Source: Pontibacter virosus
GTDB taxonomy: Bacteria; Bacteroidota; Bacteroidia; Cytophagales; Hymenobacteraceae
Direction: 5' to 3'
DNA length: 64,000 nt
Assembly: GCF_003096355.1 (NCBI RefSeq)
Contig: NZ_QEKI01000003.1
Coordinates: 1-64,000 of the forward strand
Each line of letters begins with the position of its first letter. The first letter of the stretch is position 1. The notes beneath the pieces are model-generated. The model was not told the DNA's origin, made no database searches, and worked only from the letters and a program-made list of their open reading frames with translations. Position numbers and translations under genes: made by a program. This document shows positions 1 to 10,237 of the stretch, one piece after another.

Positions 1-95
1 TTGCCCGCTTTAGTGGCCTTTGATGCCCTCCAGCCCTAAAAAAGCCTGAAAGACACGCCACTTTTAAAATCTGTAAATTTACAATCACGGTCAAC
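1..95. repeat. Direct repeat, copy 1
   Basis: This segment is almost identical to positions 590-684, which lie 589 bases further on. Both copies read TTGCYCGCTTTAGTGGCC at the left and end in CAATCACGGYCAAC. Each copy is followed at once by a different inverted repeat (101-164 after copy 1, 691-716 after copy 2). The layout suggests a modular array that continues to the left of the window. Confidence 0.85.
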
Positions 96-175
96 GATTA
101 GTCCAGATGGTGTCTCGTTGGAGGATCGCTGTGCTCAGCAAATTTCCTCCAATGGCATCTGGACAGTGTTGGTCG
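88..175. repeat. Nested hairpin with attC-like architecture
   Basis: Three paired blocks nest inside each other. CGGTCAAC (88-95) pairs with GTTGGTCG (168-175) using two G-T pairs. GTCCAGATG (101-109) pairs perfectly with CATCTGGAC (156-164). TTGGAGGA (118-125) pairs perfectly with TCCTCCAA (145-152). A short GCTG/CAGC pair sits in the loop. The outer arms each miss the integron core consensus (RYYYAAC / GTTRRRY) by one base. The 88-base length is within the range of attC sites. The structure is seen directly; the recombination role is inference. Confidence 0.5.
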
Positions 176-206
176 AGGTTGTTTTCCCCTTTTCTACCGA
201 TACTGT

Positions 207-437
207 GTGTGTTATTTATTTAAGGAAAACAACCTGAATGGTTGGGTTATTTTCTCCTCTTATATTCCATTATCAAGTGGCGCTTTAGCCGGCGGCAATA
301 CAGTTAATAGTGAAGTATTAGCAATGTTGCCAGAGGCGTCAGGCTCGGGGCTGGCCACAGTCCATAGAAAGACTAACTTATCACTGGCCTTTCTATCACC
401 GCAAGCAGCAGAAAAAGAGCCAATCAGCCGAAGCTAG
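207..437 (+). CDS. Possible small ORF (76 aa), doubtful
   Basis: An ATG-started reading frame of 76 codons lies between the hairpin at 88-175 and the inverted repeat at 401-593, where a cassette gene would sit if this were a cassette array. The product has one weakly hydrophobic stretch and no motif I recognise. Its last codons run into the left arm of the inverted repeat, which argues against a constrained protein. I list it only because the position fits; it may be chance. Confidence 0.15.
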   Translation: MCYLFKENNLNGWVIFSSYIPLSSGALAGGNTVNSEVLAMLPEASGSGLATVHRKTNLSLAFLSPQAAEKEPISRS

Positions 438-593
438 CCCCTTGACTTTGTCAATTCCCAACGCTAACTTCGCCCCACCAAAGTCTTGCCTGGACGCCCC
501 CGTCCGAAAGCGCTGGCTTTCTTCCGGCATCGCCGAGCAAGACTTCGGGTCAGAAACACCATTTCTTACTTTGGCTCTTTTTCTGCAGCTTGC
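401..593. repeat. Long nested inverted repeat
   Basis: The arms at 401-423 and 571-593 match at 22 of 23 positions as reverse complements (GCAAGCAGCAGAAAAAGAGC and onward). Inside them AAGTCTTGC (near 480-488) pairs with GCAAGACTT (near 537-545), and GAAAGC pairs with GCTTTC around a GCTG loop. The right arm runs straight into direct-repeat copy 2 at 590. It could be a structured RNA, a miniature transposable element or a recombination substrate. I see no clear target-site duplication. Confidence 0.7.
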
Positions 594-684
594 TCGCTTT
601 AGTGGCCTTTGATGCCCTCCAGCCATAAAAAGCCTGAAAGACACGCCACTTTAAAATCAGAAAATAATCCCAATCACGGCCAAC
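590..684. repeat. Direct repeat, copy 2
   Basis: Second copy of the module seen at 1-95, with a handful of substitutions and small gaps, ending in CACGGCCAAC. It lies about 140 bases from the 3' end of the tyrosine recombinase gene and is followed by the perfect palindrome at 691-716. Confidence 0.85.
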
Positions 685-690
685 TAGAGT

Positions 691-716
691 ATAGTAGGAG
701 TACCTACTCCTACTAT
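691..716. repeat. Perfect 12-bp palindrome with 2-bp centre
   Basis: ATAGTAGGAGTA (691-702), the spacer CC, then TACTCCTACTAT (705-716), an exact reverse complement. There is no T-run on either side, so it is not an ordinary terminator. The 12-bp arms resemble the geometry of a recombinase core or dimeric operator, but the 2-bp centre is shorter than the 6-8 bp usual for tyrosine recombinase crossover regions. Confidence 0.8.
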
Positions 717-822
717 CTGCACTATGTGTGGAGTACTGCTGATACCTTTTTTATTGGTTTCAAACCTCAGGCAGCTTTTCAGATCCACTACTTCCATAGC
801 GCAACACTAATATAGTTCTTTT

Positions 823-2277
823 CTACAGATTGTCAAGTGGGCTCACGATTTTATCCAGCGCGTAGGTGGTCACGTGCGCGTACACTTCCGTGGTCTTGCT
901 GCTTCTGTGCCCGAGCAAGGTCTGGATGTAGCGGAGATCCGTGCCCTGCTCCAGCAAATGCGTGGCAAAGGAGTGCCTGAGTGTATGCGGGGTGGCGCTC
1001 GTCTTTACACCGGCCTTTTTGCGGCAGGCCTGAAACACGTTGCGCAGGCTGTCTGCCGTGTACTGACCGCCAAACTGGCCCTCAAACAGCCATTCTTTCG
1101 GTTTGTATTCCTTATAGTATTGCCTTAGGCTTTCCAGCAGCTTCTGTGAGAGCACGGTGGTGCGGTCTTTTTTACCCTTGCCACCCCGAATCAACACAAG
1201 ATTGCGGTCAGACTTCACGTCGGTGAGCTTCAAGTTTATTACCTCGCCGATACGCAGGCCTCCCGCGTAGAGCAACTGAAGCATGCAGCGGTGCTTGAGG
1301 TTGTCGGTGGCCGAGAGTATCTTCTTCACCTCTTCCTTGCTGAGCACAGTGGGCAGCCTGTCGGGCTTCTCCGGGCGCTCCACATTGCGCAGCAGCACCT
1401 CGTGCCGGCCCAGCACCCGCTGGAAGTAGAACTTGACGGCGTTGATCGACTGGTTGATGAAAGAGCAGGAGTAGGCTCCGGCCTGCACCATCTGCCGGTG
1501 GTAGTGGTTGATTTCCTCCTCGGTGAAGGCGTTAATCTGTTCCATCTTCCTGTCTTTGTGGCTGTTAAGAAATCGCAGCAAAAGCGAGTGGTAGGTGCGA
1601 ATCGTGTTCATGGAGTAGTTGAGCAGGAAGAGCTTCTCCAGGTAGTCGATCGAGCAGGTGATATAGTCCGGGCCTTTGCTGTAGGTCTGCTCCCAGAGCC
1701 GGCGCAGCAGCACCACGTCGCGCACCACGAGCTCCTGGCTCAGCCACAGCCAGCCCACGCCCTCCAGCTCCTCGGCCAGTTGCTGAATGTGCTGCCCGCC
1801 CTCAGGTATGACGAAGCATTGCTGCTCCCGCTGCCAGGTGGCCAGACTGCTGTATCTAAGTGTCTCGTACACCTGCTGGCTGTAGCGGAAAGTGACGCTT
1901 ATCACCGTCTTGTTGTCATCCACCAGCATCGGCTGGAGTTTTACCACCGGCATGTCAGGCAGCTTCTCAAGCGGCTCTCCCTGCTGCCCTCCGGCCAGTA
2001 CAGGTACCAGCTTGCCGGGTTTCAGCCTTTTGGGCCGGTACAGGTACTGTGTGCTCACTTTCGCCAGTCCCTGAAAGTGCGTGAAGGTCATTTCCAGGCT
2101 CTGTGGCCGGTGGTGCATCACAAAGCACTTGTAGGTCTTGCTGTACTTGATCCAGCCGGCTTCCTTTAGCCGCTTGACAATAAAAGGATTGGGCTTGTGC
2201 CACAAACGGATGTATTTGACGCCTTCATGCTCCAGGGAGTTGAGGTAAATAACAGGCTGATTAGATGAATAGTGCAT
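823..2277 (-). CDS. Tyrosine recombinase / site-specific integrase
   Basis: A 484-residue integrase that would cut and rejoin DNA through a 3'-phosphotyrosine intermediate. The catalytic domain (about 310-484) has the full set of residues: R342 in GLRIGE, K367 in GKGKKDR, H431 and R434 in HTLRHSFATH, H457 in LLGHRSS and Y466 in EVYAHV. A SAM-like core-binding domain precedes it (about 203-292). The first 200 residues are an extra N-terminal region I cannot assign, making the protein longer than XerC/D (about 300). The extra loop typical of integron IntI between the catalytic Lys and the HxxR motif is absent. Its 3' end faces the repeat modules at 1-716, and its promoter side shares a 128-base gap with a divergent zinc-ribbon gene and an operator-like cluster. 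Confidence 0.9.
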   Translation of the reverse strand: MHYSSNQPVIYLNSLEHEGVKYIRLWHKPNPFIVKRLKEAGWIKYSKTYKCFVMHHRPQSLEMTFTHFQGLAKVSTQYLYRPKRLKPGKLVPVLAGGQQGEPLEKLPDMPVVKLQPMLVDDNKTVISVTFRYSQQVYETLRYSSLATWQREQQCFVIPEGGQHIQQLAEELEGVGWLWLSQELVVRDVVLLRRLWEQTYSKGPDYITCSIDYLEKLFLLNYSMNTIRTYHSLLLRFLNSHKDRKMEQINAFTEEEINHYHRQMVQAGAYSCSFINQSINAVKFYFQRVLGRHEVLLRNVERPEKPDRLPTVLSKEEVKKILSATDNLKHRCMLQLLYAGGLRIGEVINLKLTDVKSDRNLVLIRGGKGKKDRTTVLSQKLLESLRQYYKEYKPKEWLFEGQFGGQYTADSLRNVFQACRKKAGVKTSATPHTLRHSFATHLLEQGTDLRYIQTLLGHRSSKTTEVYAHVTTYALDKIVSPLDNL

Positions 2278-2331
2278 GATGGATAGAATTTACAACCGCA
2301 AATAAGCACCTAAATCAAAGACAGACGTAAA

Positions 2332-2391
2332 ATACCCGGGTAAGTCCGGCTATACTCGGGTATGCCGCACTTACCCGGGTATAGCCGGACT
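2332..2391. promoter_or_regulatory. Triple-repeat operator-like cluster between divergent genes
   Basis: Three near-identical 10-mers TACYCGGGTA start at 2333, 2353 and 2372, spaced 20 and 19 bases (about two helical turns). Overlapping perfect inverted repeats join them: a 14-bp pair (2332-2345 with 2369-2382) and a 12-bp pair (AGTCCGGCTATA 2343-2354 with 2380-2391). It lies between the divergent starts of the integrase and the zinc-ribbon gene, where a shared operator or accessory recombination site would be expected. Confidence 0.6.
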
Positions 2392-2405
2392 AAGAACGAT
2401 GAGAT

Positions 2406-5471: not shown

Positions 5472-5550
5472 CCGGAGTAGATCTTTTATTAACTCATACT
5501 GAGTTACAGGAGTATAAACACGAATCAGTAAAAAGCATAAACACAAGGAA

Positions 5551-6522
5551 ATGGAAGTATCTAATTTTTTAAAGAAGCACTACAAGCACTTCAACGCTGC
5601 TTCGCTTATCGACGCTGCCGAAGGATATAAGACGCACCTCAACAACGGGGGCAAAATGATGATCACGCTGGCAGGCGCTATGTCTACTGCTGAGCTGGGC
5701 ATTATCCTGGCCGAGATGATCCGTCAGGACAAGGTGCACGCGATCTCTTGTACCGGTGCTAACCTCGAAGAGGATATCTTCAACCTGGTGGCGCACGATT
5801 TCTATGAGCGCGTGCCGCATTACCGCGAGCTTTCAGCTGCCGACGAGGAAGAACTGCTGAGCCGCCACATGAACCGCGTGACAGATACCTGTATACCTGA
5901 AGAAGAGGCGATGCGCCGTATCGAGCATACCGTGCTGAAGTTCTGGGAAAAAGCAGACCAGGAAGGTAAGTCATACTTTCCGCACGAGTTCTTCTACCAG
6001 ATCCTGTTGTCAGGCGAACTGGAGCAGTACTACCAGATCGACCCGAAAAACAGCTGGATGCTGGAGGCTGCCAAGAAGAACCTGCCGATCATCTGCCCGG
6101 GCTGGGAAGACTCTACATTGGGTAACATCTATGCCGGCCACGTGATCAGCGGCGACATTAAAAATGTGCATACGATGCGCACAGGTATACAGTACATGAT
6201 GTTCCTGGCTGACTGGTATACCCAGAATGCACAGGAAGAATCGACAGTAGGTTTCTTCCAGATTGGCGGCGGTATAGCCGGCGACTTCCCGATCTGTGTG
6301 GTACCGATGCTGCACCAGGATCTGCAGCGCACAGGTGTTCCGCTTTGGGGCTACTTCGCACAGATCTCCGACTCTACAACCAGCTACGGTTCTTACTCGG
6401 GCGCTGTACCGAACGAGAAGATCACCTGGGGTAAGCTCGGCAAAGACACACCAAAGTACATGATCGAGTCTGACGCCACCATCGTGGCACCGCTCATCTT
6501 CGCGATTGTGCTGGATATGTAA
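5551..6522 (+). CDS. Deoxyhypusine-synthase-family protein
   Basis: A 323-residue protein with the fold and motifs of deoxyhypusine synthase, an NAD-dependent enzyme that moves an aminobutyl group from spermidine. Visible are the NAD-site segments TLAGAMSTAELG (about 39-50) and SCTGANLEEDIF (about 66-77), GGGIAGDF, and EKITWGKLG, where K295 matches the catalytic lysine that forms the enzyme-imine. Bacteria have no eIF5A, so the eukaryotic role cannot apply. The bacterial homologues I know of make homospermidine or are uncharacterised. A leader of about 80 bases with a TAnnTTTG element precedes it and a strong terminator follows, so it is transcribed alone. Confidence 0.9.
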   Translation: MEVSNFLKKHYKHFNAASLIDAAEGYKTHLNNGGKMMITLAGAMSTAELGIILAEMIRQDKVHAISCTGANLEEDIFNLVAHDFYERVPHYRELSAADEEELLSRHMNRVTDTCIPEEEAMRRIEHTVLKFWEKADQEGKSYFPHEFFYQILLSGELEQYYQIDPKNSWMLEAAKKNLPIICPGWEDSTLGNIYAGHVISGDIKNVHTMRTGIQYMMFLADWYTQNAQEESTVGFFQIGGGIAGDFPICVVPMLHQDLQRTGVPLWGYFAQISDSTTSYGSYSGAVPNEKITWGKLGKDTPKYMIESDATIVAPLIFAIVLDM

Positions 6523-9472: not shown

Positions 9473-10176
9473 GATTGGTGTTGAGGGTGTTTGTAAAGAT
9501 AATGGATTTTGGGAATTGGTGTAGTGAAGGAGGGGTGTTGAACCTGATGGCGCGAGCGTCCTCGCTCGTGTCTACTATCGTGAGGCCTCTGGCCTAGGTA
9601 TAGCTTGCTTTGTAGCGACTGCTGTTGCAGGTATAGTAACCACGTTGCTTTGTAGATTCGCCTGTGCGGCGGGCACCTACTTTTTTTCTTGACAAAAAAA
9701 GTAGGCAAAAAAGTCAAGACTATCCAAATCGAGGGCCCCTACCCCCACTCGCTGAACGCTCAAACAGTGGATAGTCGCAAAGTTGCACCTTGCCAAAGCG
9801 ATCTGTTCCATAGCTTCCGGGGCAAGTTAGCCTTGCTATACCTGCCAGCGGTGTGTGCTACAAAGCTTATAACTTCGAACTGGTAGTAGCAGAAGCTCCC
9901 CGCCTGGGGGTAGGGGCCCTCTTAAAGGACAAGGAGGGGCAGGGGTGGTTCGACACGGTGTTGTAAAGCAACTGCTACAGCTACGAAACTTATACCTCCA
10001 ATTGGTAGCGGCAGAAATTCCCCTCCGGGGGTAGGGGCCCTCTATTTCTACCAAGATCCTTCCAGGATGACAGTCAGGAAATCAGTAGCTCAAAGTCCCC
10101 CTTTGAAGGGGGCAGGGGGATGACAATCGTGCACCAGAATCCTGCTTCAGACAAACCTTACCACCCCATAAAAAGC
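9473..10176. repeat. Intergenic region made of dispersed repeats (no gene)
   Basis: I see no credible gene here. The arm GAGGGCCCCTACCCCC (9731-9746) faces two opposite copies, GGGGGTAGGGGCCCTC, at 9906-9921 and 10027-10042. ACCAAGATCCTTCCAGGATG (10050 onward) is the right end of the dispersed element described at 41687. CTACTTTTTTT (from about 9678) and its near-complement form a hairpin around TCTTGA. GCGAGCG/CTCGCTCG makes a small hairpin near 9552. Confidence 0.7.
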
Positions 10177-10201
10177 AAAAGCCGCGAAACTCGCGGCTTT
10201 T
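10177..10201 (-). terminator. Terminator after the catalase gene
   Basis: AAAAGCCGCGA (10177-10187), loop AAC, then TCGCGGCTTTT (10191-10201). On the minus strand the stem ends in a T-rich tail. It is 36 bases beyond the catalase stop codon. Confidence 0.8.
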
Positions 10202-10237
10202 GCCCAAACAAACAATCAATAACAAACATTTAAACTC

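Follow-up and report, generated by a model that had tools for sequence, protein, structure and literature searches.

A helically phased box array between divergent integrase and zinc-finger genes in Pontibacter virosus is a probable operator of the zinc-finger protein

The window analysed here, a 64-kb stretch (64,000 nucleotides) of the Pontibacter virosus genome, starts at a contig end and carries near that end two divergent genes, one for a tyrosine recombinase and one for a small zinc-finger protein (hereafter the integrase and the zinc protein), separated by a gap of 128 bases (2278-2405). Transcription of the integrase runs toward an array of small ORFs between which lie repeats with AAC...GTT ends, and a conserved element ending in GTT is located between the integrase and the first cassette (Table 1). 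Contigs C13 and C28 begin with the sequence of positions 1-95, and contig C18 begins with the sequence of positions 590-684, a copy of the former that is 89% identical.

Table 1. Features of the locus and their positions in the window
Feature	Position	Strand	Remarks
Integrase-proximal end of the cassette array	1-684	-	Repeats end the contig
attC-like site of the first cassette, near its left end	90-173	-	Covariance model R1, E 0.0056
attI-like element by the integrase 3' end	680-733	-	Hairpin, then GTTGGCC
XerA-like tyrosine recombinase, 484 aa, N-terminal extension of ~210 aa	823-2277	-	Proposed regulated gene
Outer weak box CAGACGTAAA, integrase side	2322-2331		First of the CpG chain
Box TACCCGGGTA	2333-2342		
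Box AGTCCGGCTA	2343-2352		Missed in the first-pass annotation; same register in close relatives L001-L005
Box TACTCGGGTA	2353-2362		
Degenerate box ATGCCGCACT	2362-2371		
Box TACCCGGGTA	2372-2381		
Box TAGCCGGACT	2382-2391		Missed in the first-pass annotation
Outer weak box AGAACGATGA, zinc-gene side	2393-2402		Last of the CpG chain
Zinc-finger protein, 129 aa	2406-2795	+	Proposed array-binding regulator (homologues, AlphaFold2, covariation)

The first-pass annotation had described three 10-mers spaced 19-20 bases apart in this gap, tied by inverted repeats of 14 and 12 perfect bases. The three 10-mers (TACCCGGGTA, TACTCGGGTA and a second TACCCGGGTA) are indeed there, with start-to-start distances of 20 and 19 bases, and their recurrence is not a matter of chance, since 17 matches with at most one mismatch were found in the window against 4.25 expected, a number reached in none of 100 shuffles. 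The inverted repeat that pairs 2332-2350 with 2364-2382 (19 nt, one mismatch) has the 14 perfect bases described, whereas the one that pairs 2343-2362 with 2372-2391 (20 nt, one mismatch) has 13 rather than 12. Across the 4.88 Mb of the genome 13 places carry the exact 10-mer, of which 3 are in the gap, and it clusters nowhere else; counted by strand, there were 21 occurrences compared with 10 for the reversed control pattern. This distribution led us to reject a regulon of the exact 10-mer across the genome. The count of three boxes had to be extended, since the boxes lying between them had been missed: chaining every CpG-centred 10-mer at spacings of 9-12 bp gave a run of eight boxes with spacings of 11, 10, 10, 9, 10, 10 and 11 bp, and no run as long arose in 500 dinucleotide shuffles. 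The conserved row comprises six to eight such sites; the two outermost boxes are weak, and under a stricter rule for the outer bases only the first four remain one chain.

Relatives of the zinc protein were encoded at 32 loci in a search of named genomes, mostly of Pontibacter, and a profile search recovered the protein in 62 of 296 genomes of the phylum and in 38 of 59 relatives. The 92 profile hits yielded 89 upstream regions after removal of three loci whose zinc gene starts within the profile (L018, L024 and L031); these 89 include identical pairs from two collections (e.g. L004 and L102). A divergent integrase was present at 50 of them (the pair loci), and none was detected in the examined stretch of the other 39. 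The chain test (p<0.05) was run on loci free of exact duplicates (40 and 39, respectively), while dereplicated subsets were used for CpG spacing, the -7 element, both covariation analyses and RNA folding, the last four of these requiring at least four chained CpGs. Some pairs were found in decay: at L018 and L068 the zinc gene has lost its 5' part and directly adjoins the integrase at its 3' end, the integrase is internally deleted and the zinc gene frameshifted at L031, and only fragments of the zinc gene are left at L024 and L067.

The period of the array is conserved more strictly than its letters. CpG pairs exactly 10 bp apart numbered 119 against 17.0 expected (z 27) upstream of 37 non-redundant zinc genes with an integrase, and 35 against 6.6 (z 11.5) upstream of 36 zinc genes without one, and further peaks were seen near 20-21 and 30-31 bp, the pattern to be expected if the sites share one face of B-DNA. 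The 41 non-redundant arrays have between 4 and 11 boxes each, where the minimum of 4 is set by the filter, and spacings of 10 bp (128 cases), 11 bp (29), 12 bp (24) and 9 bp (23), where the range is likewise set by the filter. Their boxes stand in tandem and have the roughly palindromic consensus TANNCGNNTA; the letters vary by clade (TACCCGGGTA, TAAACGTTTA, TACTCGAGTA and others) while the period is constant.

The array was detected at p<0.05 at 36 of the 40 distinct loci with both genes, so that it is conserved where the gene pair occurs, contrary to the refuting condition named in the first-pass annotation, and at 7 of the 39 loci with a zinc gene and no integrase found. Among 29 loci with independently found integrases, 3 of the 7 with a divergent zinc gene but only 1 of the 22 without one reached this level. 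A box rule that additionally demands an outer T and A gave chains of at least three boxes within 200 bp of the zinc start at 37 of the 50 pair loci and 11 of the 39 others, with no such chain near the zinc start at the remaining 13 and 28; in 4 of the 89 regions a chain lies elsewhere in the locus (L007/L118 at +739, L101 at -327 and L096 at -497). When 350,774 bases in 25 stretches were scanned, ten chains of at least four boxes were found, each in the gap before a zinc gene, and none in the pair-bearing stretches L162 and L165. The same held out of sample, with all five plasmid-borne zinc genes carrying chains of 3-5 boxes just upstream, the sole such chains in each stretch of 6-12 kb. Four of these five copies have a divergent integrase and one (L175) does not; the four include both Persicobacter records, with an integrase of 37% identity (L174) and part of one of 26% identity (L173). 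No array lay within 200 bp of the zinc start at any of the examined loci of families f7 (16) and f8 (4), and two f7 loci carry a 3-box chain farther out (-327 and -497). Six f7 loci (L081, L091, L092, L095, L100 and L101) have, by eye, similar sequence immediately upstream of the zinc gene. Given this common upstream sequence and the lack of a nearby array, the zinc protein may be differently controlled or used in f7.

The integrase-free loci point to a second partner. An ORF with the sequence signature of a single-stranded DNA-binding protein (SSB), divergent from the zinc gene and at most 500 bp away, was present at 12 of these 39 loci and at none of the 50 pair loci; reading the divergent ORFs added L023 and L089, for a total of 14. 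All ten of the 14 SSB-like ORFs that were scanned were confirmed by the Pfam SSB family (E 6.8e-21 or better). An array lies near the zinc start at nine of the 14 (L023, L026, L032, L073, L074, L076, L079, L086 and L089), and under the box rule with an outer T and A it is missing from the other five (L027, L029, L030, L082 and L093). Only two of the other 25 integrase-free loci have one, L028 and L124 (in the genus of the window), so that nine of the 11 integrase-free loci with a 3-box chain face an SSB or SSB-like gene. The array thus accompanies zinc genes whose divergent partner is an integrase or SSB. Both partners would act on folded or single-stranded DNA, which may be the reason for a common regulator. 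The SSB partner is suggestive in this respect because SSB, as described in PMC8946536, melts attC sites that have folded in the absence of integrase.

The zinc protein contains the motif C6-x2-C9-x12-C22-x3-C26, in which all four cysteines are invariant among 24 homologues, and its AlphaFold2 model (pLDDT 89.5, pTM 0.67) places a helix at residues 24-37, directly after the second cysteine pair. It has, that is, the invariant C-x2-C and C-x3-C pairs and the following helix of a treble clef, and by these features it would hold a structural metal site; the C-terminus forms a conserved alpha/beta domain. The protein did not reach the cut-off of the Pfam family DUF2116 (PF09889; E 0.87, 10 versus 26.8 bits), of which one homologue is annotated as a Zn-ribbon member. 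In structural comparisons by VIA-align, the N-terminal part matched YacG weakly (Z 4.0), a further weak match was to TRASH (Z 2.7), and the C-terminal domain gave weak winged-helix-like matches to RctB, CodY, AntR, OhrR and PagR (Z 2.2-4.7), the top one being domains 2-3 of RctB (Z 4.7, 3.7 A over 72 residues). Since nothing exceeded Z 4.7 among the VIA-align matches listed, and Foldseek with the model gave no match at E<=0.001 (best E 0.38), the fold is no independent proof of DNA binding. The protein had no sequence relative among solved structures (best E 1.3), and phage records gave zero matches.

We compared the distances between loci at the inner bases of the boxes with protein distances in windows of 12 residues, using 34 non-redundant pairs with at least 300 aligned integrase residues and controlling for the whole-protein distances of both the zinc protein and the integrase. 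The strongest windows were CSDQCRSIAKNS, QCRSIAKNSRKT and SIAKNSRKTQNA of the zinc protein, with partial correlations of 0.50, 0.46 and 0.45, not attained in any of 500 permutations for each, values that are correlational and come from related sequences. Windows nearer the N-terminus gave 0.09-0.32 and those from about residue 37 on gave at most 0.07, while the best window of the integrase (residues 58-69) yielded a partial r of 0.30 (p 0.005). An extended analysis, to which plasmid and integrase-free loci were added with the whole zinc protein as control, kept its peak at residues 25-39 at identity cuts of 0.98, 0.85, 0.75 and 0.65 (n 47, 34, 23 and 16; r 0.48, 0.48, 0.50 and 0.45; 0 of 1000 permutations each). 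This peak overlaps the helix of the model, and in treble-clef fingers such as GATA the helix after the second cysteine pair is placed in the major groove. Control dinucleotides shifted off the core of the box gave lower correlations (0.27 and 0.22) that were still significant (0 and 4 of 1000) with the same helix region on top, which is partly expected because the shifted dinucleotides land in neighbouring boxes. We do not claim a one-residue rule linking C at box position 3 to a K or N that precedes the helix's conserved N; by eye it separated the 34 pair loci with one exception (L113), but it fails for distant homologues such as L026, which has NN and A-rich boxes.

On the integrase side of the array, the start of a TAnnTTTG-like -7 element is found 16 bp from the array edge, with a mean score of 3.63 out of 6 against 1.78 over all offsets (35 loci). 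Of 44 arrays, 5 have the exact TAnnTTTG at +16 and none has it on the zinc side, downstream of the boxes; in the clade of the window the element is degenerate. In Bacteroidota the -7 consensus is TAnnTTTG and the spacer to the -33 element is about 20 bp, which would place the -33 element of the integrase inside the edge box, so that occlusion and hence repression would be the likeliest sign of regulation.

The first-pass annotation had suggested cooperative binding of one protein, perhaps the zinc-ribbon product, and the comparisons support this part: the array precedes the zinc gene whether its partner is an integrase or SSB, is absent from integrases without a zinc gene, and covaries with the treble-clef helix. 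An operator array of the zinc protein is in our view well supported by these comparisons, and the boxes quite probably form a cooperative operator through which the protein controls its own gene and the divergent integrase. Several copies of the zinc protein would bind the 10-bp boxes cooperatively, one per turn and on one face of the DNA, each reading two bases on either side of the central CpG mainly with the helix after the second cysteine pair. Since the array extends to the expected -33 region of the integrase promoter and adjoins the zinc gene upstream, filling it would repress both genes, likely so for the integrase and by autorepression for the zinc gene, whose promoter is presumed to lie on the other side of the array. 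Cassette recombination would then stay low until the zinc protein is titrated or inactivated, and the same module would face the SSB gene at loci without an integrase.

A variant that keeps the same operator and protein has the zinc protein activate the integrase, or serve mainly as a sensor of zinc or DNA damage. The array also runs upstream of the expected -33 element, in a manner compatible with activation, and the metal site predicted in the protein would fit a sensor; the overlap of the edge box with the -33 element, as expected from the promoter consensus, favours occlusion, and we consider this variant rather unlikely.

It is improbable that a host regulator, such as a nucleoid protein or the SOS repressor, binds the array in place of the zinc protein. 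There is precedent in the proteobacteria, where integron integrases are described in a section of PMC8876359 as controlled by LexA and nucleoid proteins. The two LexA motifs given for Bacteroidetes in the part of PMC8565304 that treats them, CTAA-N5-TTAG and GGA-N5-TCC, are however absent as exact copies from all 50 pair loci, including positions 2278-2405 of the window, and LexA/SOS control was rejected for this reason. Furthermore, the box sequence shifts between loci in step with the adjacent zinc protein, even between the paralogues on contigs C3 and C8 of the same genome (G000), a pattern that one host factor alone would leave unexplained.

The integrase and its surroundings bear on the question whether the boxes serve recombination itself. 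The protein is a tyrosine recombinase (Phage_integrase, E 5.9e-43) that scored 213.7 bits with the XerA-type equivalog, just below the cut-off of 220. It aligns to XerA through the IntI-specific region with a gap of only four residues, and residues 209-249 of IntI4 (2a3v) are unmatched by it. No gene in eight genomes passed the cut-off of the IntI model TIGR02249; among the matches listed, those of the pair integrases break off at model positions 177-180 and start again at 241-244, while a different ORF, in G317, covered positions 206-315. By these alignments the integrase is without the IntI-specific segment, a domain named as defining in the relevant passage of PMC9668308, and the system is not an integron by an IntI-based definition. 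Residues 1-210 (1648-2277, minus strand) form a long N-terminal extension that reached the cut-off of no Pfam family and that holds residues 58-69, the part of the integrase that covaries most with the boxes.

A first detector of attC sites was weak, since in five of nine arrays its candidates did not outnumber those of the reversed control (L169, 4 versus 4; L166, 4 versus 5; L167, 7 versus 7; L163, 3 versus 3; L165, 0 versus 2), and a covariance model (R1) built from 24 sites of the AAC...GTT repeat was therefore used instead. At E<=0.1 the model matched no site in the 64-kb window other than the one in Table 1. Outside its training set it recovered 10 sites on one strand of L069 (the 5.8-kb contig C28; E<=0.1), 6 sites in the plasmid locus L171, 5 in L172 and none in L173; apart from mirror images on the opposite strand, all sites in L171 and L172 fall within the cassette zone, on the same strand as the integrase. 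Cassettes separated by attC-like sites are a hallmark of integrons, and on comparison of the loci the array is integron-like; the integrase, judged from its position, would be the enzyme that moves these cassettes. Nearly all ORFs are codirectional in the paralogous array L058 on contig C8 of the same genome (21 of 22) and in those of related genomes, L167 (24 of 24) and L164 (18 of 18), and strands are mixed in the other six of nine long stretches. Integrons are known from Bacteroidota in general (a statement in PMC8618304) and intI genes from the Bacteroidetes/Chlorobi group (likewise in PMC2426708), and in the IntegronFinder 2.0 results, as excerpted from PMC9024848, one complete integron is assigned to the Bacteroidetes proper, in Salinibacter.

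Several further features of the cassettes were observed. The attI-like element stands alone at five other places in the genome (L059, 489-549; L062, 2512-2567; L063, 2399-2439; L064, 2501-2553; L065, 812-845), each time followed by a small ORF and in L063, L064 and L065 by an attC-like site as well, which looks as though individual cassettes had been taken up at solitary attI copies. Two identical cassette ORFs of 193 aa in the L058 array (5542-6123 and 9622-10203) are consistent with a recent duplication or re-insertion. The gene pair and its cassette array are also found on plasmids typed as mobilizable, in Rufibacter tibetensis (L171) and Pontibacter kalidii (L172).

The first-pass annotation had offered an accessory site for recombination as the other reading, and this part was not upheld. 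That the boxes are binding sites of the integrase, of the arm type or as attI, for recombination or for autoregulation of the integrase, would fit their position next to its gene, the weak covariation of residues 58-69 and the presence of a divergent integrase in the Persicobacter plasmid copies; yet integrases without a zinc gene lack the array at all but one of 22 loci, zinc genes that face SSB still carry it, and the attC-like sites and the attI-like element sit at the opposite, 3' end of the integrase, which together leave this reading with a small chance of being correct. That the symmetry reflects an RNA hairpin, an attenuator or terminator in the leader of the zinc or integrase gene, is very improbable as a conserved feature: the array of the window does fold to -39.2 kcal/mol (z -4.8) and z is below -3 in 22 of 41 arrays (median -3.6), but it is -2 or higher in 11 of the 41 and above zero in two (L109 and L111) although the spacing is kept, and tandem palindromic boxes yield hairpin potential as a by-product.

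If the zinc protein does act on the boxes as proposed, an integron-like system in Bacteroidota would have a local switch dedicated to it. Host-wide regulators are generally regarded as keeping integron integrases in check, and those reported in a section of PMC8876359 include LexA, CRP, Fis, H-NS, IHF and RpoS/PsrA; single-strand recombination is thought, as put in a passage of PMC7790495, to have been gained through the I2 helix. Both views would have to change if a dedicated, co-inherited regulator whose specificity code diverges were at work next to an integrase devoid of the IntI-specific segment. Searches of open-licence PMC papers other than preprints yielded neither a description of this gene pair nor one of a dedicated local regulator. 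The loci moreover provide a natural set (34 pairs, or 47 loci in the extended covariation) for reading the recognition code of a zinc finger. We advance a broader picture tentatively, as one that may well prove wrong: a cassette-capture system in Bacteroidota would recombine attC-like hairpin sites through a XerA-like integrase devoid of the IntI-specific segment, its own switch in place of LexA would be a treble-clef zinc-finger protein assembling along the helically phased array, helix and boxes would diverge together so that several systems coexist without cross-talk, and the switch would be an older SSB-facing module that was recruited by the integron and may govern the handling of single-stranded DNA more generally.

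Among known systems, the treble clefs of YacG, TRASH-MYM and DUF2116 share the C-x2-C...C-x3-C knuckle followed by a helix, but the zinc protein falls below the DUF2116 cut-off and has an additional conserved C-terminal domain. The proposed control resembles that of proteobacterial integron integrases by LexA, in which a repressor site in the promoter holds recombination low (described in part of PMC8876359); it differs in having no exact LexA motif at any of the 50 pair loci and in placing a tandem, helically phased array next to a divergent regulator gene of its own, where LexA control has a single SOS box.

Iterons are short sites repeated in tandem with a period of roughly one helical turn, and the protein that binds them is encoded nearby. 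The array has the helical spacing of such sites, as in those of RctB and plasmid Rep proteins, and domains 2-3 of RctB were the weak top structural match of the zinc protein. Unlike iterons, its 10-bp boxes are centred on CpG and lie in the promoter gap of a recombinase or SSB gene, and nothing examined suggests a role in replication. The locus is like a chromosomal integron in its small ORFs, split by attC-like hairpins with AAC...GTT ends beside a tyrosine recombinase and oriented in one direction in three of nine stretches. The usual integron integrase reads away from its array, whereas the one described here reads toward it, is XerA-like and without the IntI-specific segment, and has an extra N-terminus of ~210 aa and a divergent zinc-finger partner. 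On these comparisons the system would function in the manner of an integron with an iteron-like operator, and by the IntI test it stands outside the integron family as now defined.
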